A DNA stretch of 64,000 bases from Cyanidiococcus yangmingshanensis (Eukaryota; Rhodophyta; Bangiophyceae; Cyanidiales; Cyanidiaceae). Below are positions 241-34,609 of the stretch, piece by piece (position 1 is the first letter of the stretch; every line of letters begins with the position of its first letter). Location of the stretch: contig VWRR01000014.1 in the NCBI GenBank assembly GCA_013995675.1, positions 124,001 to 188,000 on the forward strand. Reading direction: 5' to 3'. The translations under genes and the position numbers were made by a program. The notes beneath the pieces were generated by a model that searched no databases, had not been told where the DNA came from, and worked only from the letters and a program-made list of their open reading frames with translations.

Positions 241-1176
241 CTAGAGAATCGGAAGCCGCCGATTACGATACCAACCCAGAAAAGCGAGCATGGCGCTCAG
301 AGTGAACCAGGTAATGCTGTAGTTGGCATGCGTTTCGGGAGAGATATAAAACTGGCACAAGTCATGGCTAGTCGGTCGGTATACCGACAGGCTGGCAAGT
401 GGGTCTTTCGGATGCGTCGCGTCGCTTTGGACAGGCGATTGCTCATCGAGCTCTTCGAGCAACAAGCGCCCGCCGAGGTCCTTGCTATCCAGTCGAAACC
501 ATTTGTGATCCTGCGGTCGATTGCGAGGCATGAAGAAGGACGACTTCTCTTGCTGCTGTGGAACTGCACGCAGCTCGGTCTGCCCACCCGACGGAGTGGT
601 GGTATTCTCAGCAAAGGCCCTCACGTTCTTCCAATAGTCCGCGACTTGCTCCCTAGGTATCCAACCTCGGTTGACCAGCACCGGCCACCAGGCCAAACCA
701 CTATCGTCCACAGGGGCTGCTACGGGTCCCAAACCCTCAACTTGCAAGGGCGTGACCACAAAGTAACCGAAAGGGTTTGCACCCGATCGACTGTGTTCTG
801 AAACATAGCGCGGACAGGGACGGGGCCCAACTAGGCGGGTCTCCTCGTGGACCCAGTCTCCACGCAGGTCCAGAACTCGATAGGCCTGCAGTTCGACTTG
901 TCGCAAGTCCTGCAGCAAAAGCGTGTTATCGCCGGGCGGCAAGGCGAACTGTCGGTTGCAGACCTCTATGGCCTTGATTTTCTCGAAACGACGTCTGAAC
1001 TGCCATACCCCGAGTCCGCACGCAATGCCTGCCGGCACAAAAGATAGTAACCGTTGCCACAAGGGATGCAGCGCCATCACTGTCACCAACTGGGATTCGT
1101 CGAACGCGCCGCAGCGCGTTGCGCTCATGTCGAGGATCCGTGACGCGTTCGATTCCGAACGCGGATCCCCACTCAT
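241..1176 (-). CDS. SURF1: SURF1/Shy1 family cytochrome c oxidase assembly factor
   Basis: SURF1 proteins sit in the mitochondrial inner membrane and help insert heme a into COX1 during complex IV assembly. The 311-residue frame has the family layout: an N-terminal transmembrane segment (about residues 43-60) followed by the hallmark GVWQFRRRFEKIKAIE, the central box VLVNRGWIPRE (about 168-178), and a second membrane helix near the C-terminus led by the conserved HANYSITWFTLS. Length matches the family. The start is a real ATG at 1176. The stretch before the first helix lacks an obvious cleavable presequence, and a second Met lies at residue 17, so the exact start is open. The frame is intact, unlike many neighbours. 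Family assignment is from recognised motifs and is firm; mitochondrial location is inferred. Confidence 0.9.
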   Translation of the reverse strand: MSGDPRSESNASRILDMSATRCGAFDESQLVTVMALHPLWQRLLSFVPAGIACGLGVWQFRRRFEKIKAIEVCNRQFALPPGDNTLLLQDLRQVELQAYRVLDLRGDWVHEETRLVGPRPCPRYVSEHSRSGANPFGYFVVTPLQVEGLGPVAAPVDDSGLAWWPVLVNRGWIPREQVADYWKNVRAFAENTTTPSGGQTELRAVPQQQEKSSFFMPRNRPQDHKWFRLDSKDLGGRLLLEELDEQSPVQSDATHPKDPLASLSVYRPTSHDLCQFYISPETHANYSITWFTLSAMLAFLGWYRNRRLPIL

Positions 1177-1916
1177 GTGGCCTTTCTTTTCTCACTCATT
1201 TGCTGTAACCTGTGTCCATGCGCTGCAACAAAAACGATTGGCCAAGAACGATCTTCAATCTTGGCCAGTGGATGCTGCATCCTGAAACATACATCTGTCT
1301 TGCAATCGCCAAAAATAGAGCTCATGTGGGGATTCAGCGCAGATCCGGGACAGTCTATTCGGCGTCGAGATTTCGAGGACGCGCGCTTGTCGACGCCTCG
1401 CTTCGTTGATTAGGGCGGCTCGTGAAAAAGGCAATCCGCTTCCGTTGCGGCATCGATAAGCAACCGCAGATAAAATGATGCATCTGCTGGGGCTCGAAAC
1501 AATCGGTGCTTTGCTGAACCCGATGGAGAAGGTTCCCAGCAAGTGCTGGTGTGCCAACCCGAATCAGTCGATGACCTCAGATACAGAGCAGCTGGCGGAG
1601 CATGCCCCTTGAGAAACGAATGAAACCAGGAGAGGCTTTCCGTCGAGACTGACGACTGCGACACGTGCGCAGCGCGTGAGCGTCTGCAGTGATGTCCGGG
1701 GTCGCCCTCGTCGATTTCGCAACGCGGCGGCGATGCGTCGGTGCCACACACACAGACAACAATCGTGCGGGTGCTTTGGCTTGAGCGCGCTCCCATCCAT
1801 CGCCAAACCTGCGACCGCTGGGATTCAGTCTGGGCTTTTCCATCATCGTTTCGCAACGCGGCACCGCGATAAACGCTTCGGTCTCCCCTCTGGTTTTCCT
1901 TGGTGTCGTGCTCCGC
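1177..1916. other. 740-bp intergenic stretch, divergent promoters
   Basis: It lies between the divergent SURF1 and DEP-DUF547 genes and must hold both promoters. Open frames on both strands are short, start at non-ATG codons or look like arginine/serine-rich noise. No tRNA T-loop, hairpin terminator or repeat was seen. Confidence 0.4.
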
Positions 1917-26744: not shown

Positions 26745-26877
26745 TGCCATCGCGCGGGATCGAACCACGGACCTTTGCATCTCCAGTTCGGTGGATGAAC
26801 CGAACAACGAGCTTCAGTGCAACGCTTCAGGGCGGGGGCACGGAGCCCCCCTTGTCTCCCTGCTGAGCTACAATGGC
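26745..26877 (-). tRNA. tRNA-Phe(GAA) with two introns (D-arm and anticodon loop)
   Basis: The 133-nt gene folds to a 73-nt tRNA when two inserts are removed. Acceptor GCCATTG pairs with CGATGGC (one G-U), discriminator A. T-arm CGTGG-TTCGATC-CCGCG pairs fully with one U-G. Anticodon stem TTGCA/TGCAA closes loop CTGAAGA, anticodon GAA. The D-arm is GCTCAGCAGGGAGAGC, interrupted after GGGAGA by a 29-nt intron (26826-26854) that holds a strong GGGGGC/GCCCCC hairpin. The second intron, 31 nt (26781-26811), lies at the canonical site 3' of position 37. Boundaries can slide by a base or two. D-arm introns are unusual outside cyanidialean algae and some archaea. Exon sum 73 plus 29 plus 31 equals the gene length exactly. 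Confidence 0.9.
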
Positions 26878-33839: not shown

Positions 33840-33969
33840 TCTCGCGTGGTCTAGTGCGCGCGCCCAGCGTCTAGAAGTTAGTGTCAAATGGTCGCCATCC
33901 GCGGCTGATGACAACTCCGATGCCTGGCTTTCACCCAGGAGATCGCGGGTTCGAACCCCGCCGCGAGAA
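33840..33969 (+). tRNA. tRNA-Glu(UUC) with two D-loop introns and a 5-nt exon
   Basis: The 130-nt gene folds to a 73-nt tRNA when 20-nt (33857-33876) and 37-nt (33882-33918) inserts are removed; between them a 5-nt exon GTTAG (33877-33881) remains. The spliced D-arm GTCTAGTG+GTTAG+GATG equals the common eukaryotic tRNA-Glu D-arm. Acceptor TCTCGCG/CGCGAGA pairs fully, discriminator A. Anticodon arm CCTGG-CTTTCAC-CCAGG gives anticodon TTC. T-arm is GCGGG-TTCGAAC-CCCGC. Exons (73) plus introns (57) equal the gene length. Splice boundaries may slide by a base. A single larger intron would leave the D-loop without its GG pair, so two introns is the better reading. Confidence 0.87.
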
Positions 33970-34336: not shown

Positions 34337-34340
34337 AAAA
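34337..34340 (-). terminator. Pol III T-run of permuted tRNA-Glu(CUC)
   Basis: Four T residues on the minus strand, 12 nt after the 5'-half piece ends. Confidence 0.6.
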
Positions 34341-34352
34341 GAGCAACCGCCT

Positions 34353-34462
34353 TGAGAGCGCTGTATGATAGCCGTTACACTACGCCGGAGCCAATGTGCG
34401 CGAAGACAGGGATTCCGGCGCCGGGATATTCGTCATGAAGGATCGAACCCGGATCTCAGCGG
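34353..34462 (-). tRNA. Circularly permuted tRNA-Glu(CUC) with a T-loop insert
   Basis: On the minus strand the 3' half comes first (34462 down to 34413), then a 23-nt spacer (34390-34412), then the 5' half (34389 to 34353). The 5' half reads TCCGGCG, TA, D-arm GTGTAACGGCTATCAT, A, CAGCG, CTCTCA (positions 1-37, anticodon CTC). The 3' half reads C, CGCTG, AGAT, CCGGG, T-loop, CCCGG, CGCCGGA, A (positions 38-73). All stems pair: TCCGGCG/CGCCGGA, CAGCG/CGCTG, CCGGG/CCCGG. Between T-loop and CCCGG lie 15 extra nt (34426-34440), best read as an intron at the T-loop. Counts agree: 37+23+50 = 110 nt, with 35 tRNA nt plus 15 in the 3' part. The break lies at the usual intron site 37/38. Confidence 0.87.
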
Positions 34463-34502
34463 CGCTTTGACGGCGTCGAATTTGAGATTTGGCTTCCAAT
34501 TC

Positions 34503-34510
34503 TATATATA
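34503..34510 (-). promoter_or_regulatory. Upstream TATA-like element of permuted tRNA-Glu(CUC)
   Basis: TATATATA, inside CTTTATATATAG on the minus strand, begins 48 nt before the first tRNA base of the permuted gene. The extra 9-10 nt compared with the other two genes would fit a leader needed for splicing. Confidence 0.6.
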
Positions 34511-34609
34511 AAGCGGTGATGTGGGTTTTCGAAGCGTTTTTGCGAGACACCAGCGCCATAGCGACTTGGAACCGCAGTTCGCACTTGCCGCAGCGTCGAC
34601 GGCAGCTCG

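Follow-up and report, generated by a model that had tools for sequence, protein, structure and literature searches.

Anatomy of the tRNA-Glu(CUC) locus

In the window, the whole 64,000-nt stretch of DNA analysed here (GC content 55.8%), positions 34462..34353 of the minus strand hold a tRNA-Glu(CUC) locus in which the 3' half lies upstream of the 5' half (Table 1). Once the two halves are put back in order, the acceptor stem (7/7), the anticodon stem (5/5) and the T-stem (5/5) are completely paired, and the D-stem is weaker, with two Watson-Crick pairs and one G-U pair. ARAGORN identifies the reordered, intron-free 72-mer as tRNA-Glu(ctc) and calls nothing on the raw locus. The complete cloverleaf, together with the same-strand order of 3' half before 5' half, makes this a type II gene, permuted at position 37/38. 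By eye, the spacer between the halves contains neither a T4 run nor a TATA element, that is, no internal terminator or promoter. An earlier note on this DNA had claimed a permuted tRNA-Glu(CUC) with its junction at 37/38, a spacer of this length, stem pairing after reordering and a cyanidialean source; these claims hold, with the coordinates right, the gene on the minus strand and the D-stem as the weaker of the stems.

Table 1. Features of the permuted tRNA-Glu(CUC) locus, in the order of the minus strand.
Feature	Position in window	Strand	Basis or remark
TATA box TTTATATATAG	34502..34512	-	TTTATA starts at -50 from the first tRNA base
Leader part of the junction bulge-helix-bulge motif: h' GCCGUC (34474..34469), central-helix AAAG (34468..34465), two bulge nucleotides	34463..34474	-	read by eye, then evaluated
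3' fragment, tRNA positions 38-59	34442..34462	-	reordered ARAGORN call; held-out covariance model
15-nt T-loop intron CCTTCATGACGAATA at 59/60	34427..34441	-	splice points inferred; CGAA pairs with exon TTCG
3' fragment continued, tRNA positions 60-73; CCA not encoded	34413..34426	-	reordered ARAGORN call
23-nt intervening spacer, acceptor 3' end to 5' end	34390..34412	-	
5' fragment, tRNA positions 1-37, anticodon CTC	34353..34389	-	ARAGORN call; covariance model
Trailer part of the junction bulge-helix-bulge motif: one bulge nucleotide and h' GGCGGU	34346..34352	-	sequence reading, then evaluated
T4 run, predicted RNA polymerase III terminator	34337..34340	-	starts 13 nt past the 5' fragment

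Two further putative tRNAs lie in the window. A putative tRNA-Glu(UUC) at 33840-33969 on the plus strand, with an insert of about 60 nt in its D-arm and a TATA box 39 nt upstream, stands tail to tail with the permuted gene at a distance of 383 bp. Its Rfam score of 27.2 bits is under the gathering score of 29, ARAGORN with introns allowed names it Ser, and a loose-threshold Rfam search of 33800-35000 matches only this tRNA, near 33900. The predicted anticodon loops read CUCUCAC in tRNA-Glu(CUC) and CUUUCAC in this neighbour, so that C38 is common to both. A putative disrupted tRNA-Phe(GAA) at 26745-26877 on the minus strand combines the acceptor stem GCCATTG/CGATGGC and the anticodon stem TTGCA/TGCAA with what look like insertions at two places, the D-arm and 37/38. 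It has TTTATA upstream and T6 downstream, and it is absent from the whole-window ARAGORN and Rfam results. Over the whole window, ARAGORN and Rfam at the gathering score report no tRNA at all, as expected for disrupted tRNAs. For annotation, this is a window reported as free of tRNAs that yet holds a permuted tRNA-Glu(CUC) and two further putative disrupted tRNAs.

Predicted bulge-helix-bulge motifs at both break points

In a bulge-helix-bulge (BHB) motif, cleavage falls after the second base of each bulge. Around the 15-nt insert, the T-stem CCGGG/CCCGG forms the outer helix of such a motif, TTCG of the exon and CGAA of the insert form a central helix of 4/4 pairs, and ATC and TAT form the 3-nt bulges. 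Cleavage after the second bulge base would leave the loop UUCGAUU; in this register the loop base U60 follows the insert, which places the intron at 59/60. The T-loop insert described by the earlier note is thus indeed BHB-intron-like, but it sits within the loop rather than between the loop and the stem strand CCCGG. A 4/4 central helix at the exact intron register is reached by 1.4% of shuffled introns. The free fold also shows the TTCG/CGAA pairing, but an extra UC/GA pair inside the intron leaves a 5' bulge of 1 nt, and judged on energy only, the intron does not stand out (313 of 2000 shuffles are as stable). The intron in the 3' half has its own, non-nested BHB motif, as in genes of the tRNA-Gly(CCC) kind.

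Alternatively, the 15 nt might be no intron and be kept in a tRNA with an enlarged T-loop. We regard this as very improbable: the TTCG/CGAA helix lies at the exact BHB register, excision restores the standard loop UUCGAUU, and introns of the T-loop or T-arm are removed from Cyanidioschyzon merolae tRNA-Gly(CCC) and tRNA-Ile(UAU), as described in PMC3978253 and PMC9602550.

At the permutation junction, the anticodon stem CAGCG/CGCTG (5 bp) serves as the outer helix, flanked by the 3-nt bulges CAA and CGC. The central helix CUCU/AAAG has 3/4 pairs with a C34xA mismatch, and the h' helix GGCGGU/GCCGUC has 6/6 pairs, two of them G-U. For random leaders and trailers, the joint probability of both junction helices is about 0.0004. 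The flanks can form a BHB motif of the relaxed kind, which is not the cofold optimum: the optimal cofold of the junction strands, at -16.0 kcal/mol, uses another pairing, and 30 of 2000 random pairs of leader and trailer attain this value; the BHB register amounts to -10.9 kcal/mol. Folded freely in its full length, the precursor does not exceed shuffled sequences in stability (z 0.58), and this fold is uninformative.

Promoter-like and terminator-like signals

The gene has a TATA-like box about 50 bp upstream and a T-stretch downstream (-50 and +13). In all eight permuted tRNA genes examined, TTTATA or TATATA starts at -38 to -55 and a T4 run lies at +6 to +19, under TATA and T4 criteria that were picked after the genes had been seen. 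As a background rate, TATAWA occurs within the 45 bases from -70 to -26 at 0.4% of window positions. TATAWA lies at -70 to -30 in 7 of 16 other tRNA candidates, several more have TTTATAG or TTTATATC by eye, and the rest (e.g. L004, L009, L011) have none there. A bacterial promoter scan was set aside as irrelevant.

These signals also bear on the possibility that an assembly rearrangement gave a normal tRNA gene its permuted look, the order of the halves having been read from one assembly only. A misassembly is expected neither to create pairing between leader and trailer in a BHB motif nor to place TATA and T4 at distances common to seven other permuted genes, and we consider it exceedingly remote as an explanation.

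Statistical support for the permuted frame

A permuted tRNA frame was found once in the real window and in 0 of 60 dinucleotide-shuffled windows, the criteria being full acceptor, anticodon and T-stems, U8, U33, R37, GG in the D-loop and at least two of three D-stem pairs. In 1,428,480,000 strand-bases of order-1 Markov sequence, six cloverleaf frames appeared without the D-stem requirement; the chance expectation is 0.0005 permuted frames per window on both strands, before the BHB motifs, TATA box or terminator are counted. The cloverleaf criteria are canonical tRNA features, although they were set after the locus was known.

A held-out covariance model, built from four tRNAs of the same genome in permuted order with Glu excluded, gives the locus a score of 51.4 bits (E 5.4e-16, with a rough E calibration). 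Of its rows, His and two Gly were permuted artificially, and Gln is naturally permuted with its spacer replaced. The next match of this model in the window, at 19.3 bits, overlaps the putative T-arm of the tRNA-Phe(GAA). Another covariance model, R1, gives 66.3 bits at the locus; since the Glu gene is among its training rows, this score is no independent evidence. Aligning four real permuted genes with MAFFT gave a result too poor to build a model on, and tRNAs set in permuted order took its place; alignment A2 was dropped as a model basis because its rows with variable loops of 4 nt and of 5 nt were not in register with each other. On the ARAGORN call, the shuffles, the held-out score, the expected number of frames, the BHB motifs and the TATA/T4 signals, an origin of the cloverleaf by chance is judged unlikely.

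Search for another source of tRNA-Glu(CUC)

The genome (12.07 Mb, 20 contigs, with the window on contig C6) is that of Cyanidiococcus yangmingshanensis, a red alga of hot springs: the product of the neighbouring gene shows 99% identity over 82% of its length to a protein of this species and 76% (43% covered) to one of Cyanidioschyzon merolae, and a protein on contig C9 is 100% identical to a C. yangmingshanensis protein. It was searched for other genes of this kind. An 18-nt D-arm pattern with up to 3 mismatches finds the permuted locus as its sole match in the 12.07 Mb. A 20-nt pattern of the 3' half, likewise with up to 3 mismatches, finds the locus and one other place, which has GTGCGA where the T-loop would read GTTCGA and is therefore not T-arm-like; both patterns presuppose the sequence of the permuted gene. 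Among 21 Rfam tRNA matches, identified by ARAGORN or by eye, none is another tRNA-Glu(CUC), with 63 of 292 candidates scored; ARAGORN called only 15 genes in 25 loci. A normal tRNA-Glu(CUC) elsewhere, which the earlier note had named as the finding that would speak against its reading, was thus not encountered in these non-exhaustive genome searches.

The locus could in principle be a decayed or silent permuted copy, with an undetected gene supplying tRNA-Glu(CUC) or with tRNA-Glu(UUC) alone reading GAG. Its expression is a prediction from sequence, and a strongly disrupted second gene might escape searches that scored 63 of 292 candidates and used patterns presuming the known sequence. Against such decay, all pairs of the acceptor, anticodon and T-stems are kept, each break point has its BHB motif, a TATA box and a T4 run are in place, and no second tRNA-like match to the D-arm or 3' half occurs in the 12.07 Mb; in addition, GAG is commoner than GAA (69 to 35) among the Glu codons of four Pfam-supported ORFs. 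On the intact stems, the BHB motifs and the TATA and T4 signals, we judge a pseudogene unlikely, and distinctly so.

Other permuted tRNA genes in the genome

The pattern GGTTCRANTCC occurs at 97 places in the genome (control, 42). All 97 were inspected and comprise 30 loci, 60 regions (61 places) and 6 places inside loci already in the set. A scan of 119 loci finds the 37/38 junction in Glu(CUC), Gln(CTG), Thr(AGT) and Leu(CAG). When the held-out model is run on 90 loci, Gln(CTG), Thr(AGT) and Leu(CAG) rank first with 73.2, 45.2 and 29.9 bits, Gln(CTG) being also a training row of that model, and the remaining 11 of its 14 matches have at most 25.0 bits. Loci L087, L099 and L102 are the permuted Leu(CAG), Thr(AGT) and Gln(CTG); by our reading of Rfam matches, L016, L019 and L021 are permuted Lys(TTT), Ala(TGC) and iMet. 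Several of these six have an upstream motif near CTTTATATAnnnAATTTGG. Finally, a Gly D-arm pattern led to L121 (G000:C14 near 455400, minus strand), a Gly(CCC) that has its permutation junction at 37/38, an intron of about 16 nt in the T-loop, a spacer of 7 nt, a TATA-like box and a T-run.

All seven of these other permuted isoacceptors stand on the C. merolae list in Table 1 of PMC3978253. Compared with that list, spacer lengths are equal for Thr(AGT) (24), Gly(CCC) (7), Ala(TGC) (8) and Lys(TTT) (38), and unequal for Gln (73 here, 31 in C. merolae), Leu (12 and 9) and iMet (21 and 74). Permuted genes here number at least eight; the C. merolae list further contains Leu(TAA), Thr(CGT), Arg(CCT) and a second Gly(CCC), which lay outside the specific searches. 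A further locus, L013 (G000:C3:132028-132130, minus strand), looks by eye like a probable Thr(UGU) tRNA whose variable loop and T-arm region are separated by an insert.

Processing machinery and proposed pathway

Pfam identifies two proteins with a tRNA-endonuclease catalytic domain, L024 and L025, which by our reading of their motifs are putatively Sen34 and Sen2, and a protein with a Sen54 N-terminal domain, L027. It also identifies a Sen15-family protein at 913-1650 (plus strand) of locus L026, which lies on contig C9 of the genome (G000), with 35.7 bits for PF09631 at a cut-off of 22. Reviews state that no Sen15 was found in C. merolae, and a cluster search with L026 returned two clusters, one of them itself, neither of which named C. 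merolae. An RtcB gene (L058/L059, G000:C5:165663-166977, minus strand) is represented by two overlapping Pfam matches in different frames, a split for which a frameshift, an intron or a sequence error are possible causes.

Taken together, we propose that the locus is a functional nuclear tRNA-Glu(CUC) gene of C. yangmingshanensis with a type II permutation (37/38) plus a BHB intron at 59/60, and we assign this reading a probability of about 0.93. What can be seen directly in the DNA is the anatomy of the gene, junctions capable of forming BHB motifs, promoter-like and terminator-like signals, and the endonuclease and RtcB genes; transcription, the order of cleavage, a circular intermediate and the function of the tRNA-Glu(CUC) are what we infer by analogy with C. 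merolae. In the proposed pathway, which follows the one shown for C. merolae (PMC3978253), RNA polymerase III would start from the upstream TATA box and stop at the T4 run, and the splicing endonuclease would first remove the 15-nt T-loop intron and then cut off leader and trailer at the 37/38 BHB motif. Ligation, for which an RtcB gene is present, would yield a circular pre-tRNA, from which RNase P and tRNase Z would excise the 23-nt acceptor spacer before CCA is added. For C. merolae tRNA-Gly(CCC), PMC3978253 describes the T-loop intron as leaving before processing of the termini and removal of the acceptor spacer.

Comparison with known permuted tRNA genes and a possible recent origin

Permuted tRNA genes are few, the 2014 review counting 34, and whether they are of ancient or recent origin is posed there as an open question (PMC3978253). 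Cyanidiococcus is the sister genus of Cyanidioschyzon (PMC13353863), and it shares seven permuted isoacceptors with C. merolae and has one, Glu(CUC), that is off the C. merolae list: Glu(CTC) is absent from the permuted tRNAs of C. merolae in Table 1 of PMC3978253. The permutation may thus have been gained recently, or else C. merolae may have lost it. In the portion of the literature covered by our searches, we saw no report of a permuted tRNA in Cyanidiococcus or of a permuted red-algal tRNA-Glu.

Tentatively, and at slightly less than even odds, we suggest that the permutation of Glu(CUC) arose within Cyanidiococcus once this lineage had separated from Cyanidioschyzon, and that the ancestral gene had one intron at 37/38 and another at 59/60. 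If true, the event would be a recent de novo permutation that can be dated, with the unpermuted state still present in the sister genus; for at least one permuted tRNA it would decide for the recent-origin model, and one gene would show type II and type IV permutations arising from the same kind of two-intron ancestor. The difference between the two genera, together with an intron that sits where other tRNAs of the group are permuted, offers a before-and-after comparison, and the transcript would present two separate BHB sites to the unusual splicing endonuclease of these algae.

The earlier note had taken the combination of permutation and T-loop intron to be the unusual part, a view that the comparison does not support: C. 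merolae tRNA-Gly(CCC) is a precedent, and L121 is its counterpart here. Two C. merolae tRNA-Gly(CCC) genes (Soma et al. 2007, 2013, as listed in Table 1 of PMC3978253) resemble Glu(CUC) in having their junction at 37/38 and, in the 3' half, a BHB intron within the T-loop. Their intron, however, is of 13 nt, lies at 55/56 and belongs to the BHB class 'no h', whereas that of Glu(CUC) is of 15 nt and lies at 59/60; their spacer is 7 nt rather than 23 nt, and the isoacceptor differs. The intronless type II genes of C. merolae listed there, Gln(CTG), Leu(CAG), Thr(AGT) and Thr(CGT), share the 37/38 junction and the order of halves and, unlike Glu(CUC), are without a T-loop intron; the first three are permuted here too, with TATA and a T-run. 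The type IV genes Ala(TGC), Arg(CCT) and Lys(TTT) of C. merolae have a BHB motif at 59/60, as Glu(CUC) does, where it marks the permutation junction rather than an ordinary intron, and among these three only Arg(CCT) is given an intron, at 14/15 (PMC3978253). In Thermofilum pendens, iMet(CAT) and Tyr(GTA) are likewise both permuted and intron-bearing, and the two positions involved are those of Glu(CUC) with the roles reversed, the junction lying at 59/60 and the intron at 37/38, in archaeal genes that encode CCA (PMC3978253). The kind of gene is thus known, including the combination of permutation with a T-loop intron; measured against Table 1 of the 2014 review (PMC3978253), two things are new, the Glu(CUC) isoacceptor and the presence in a permuted gene of an intron at 59/60.
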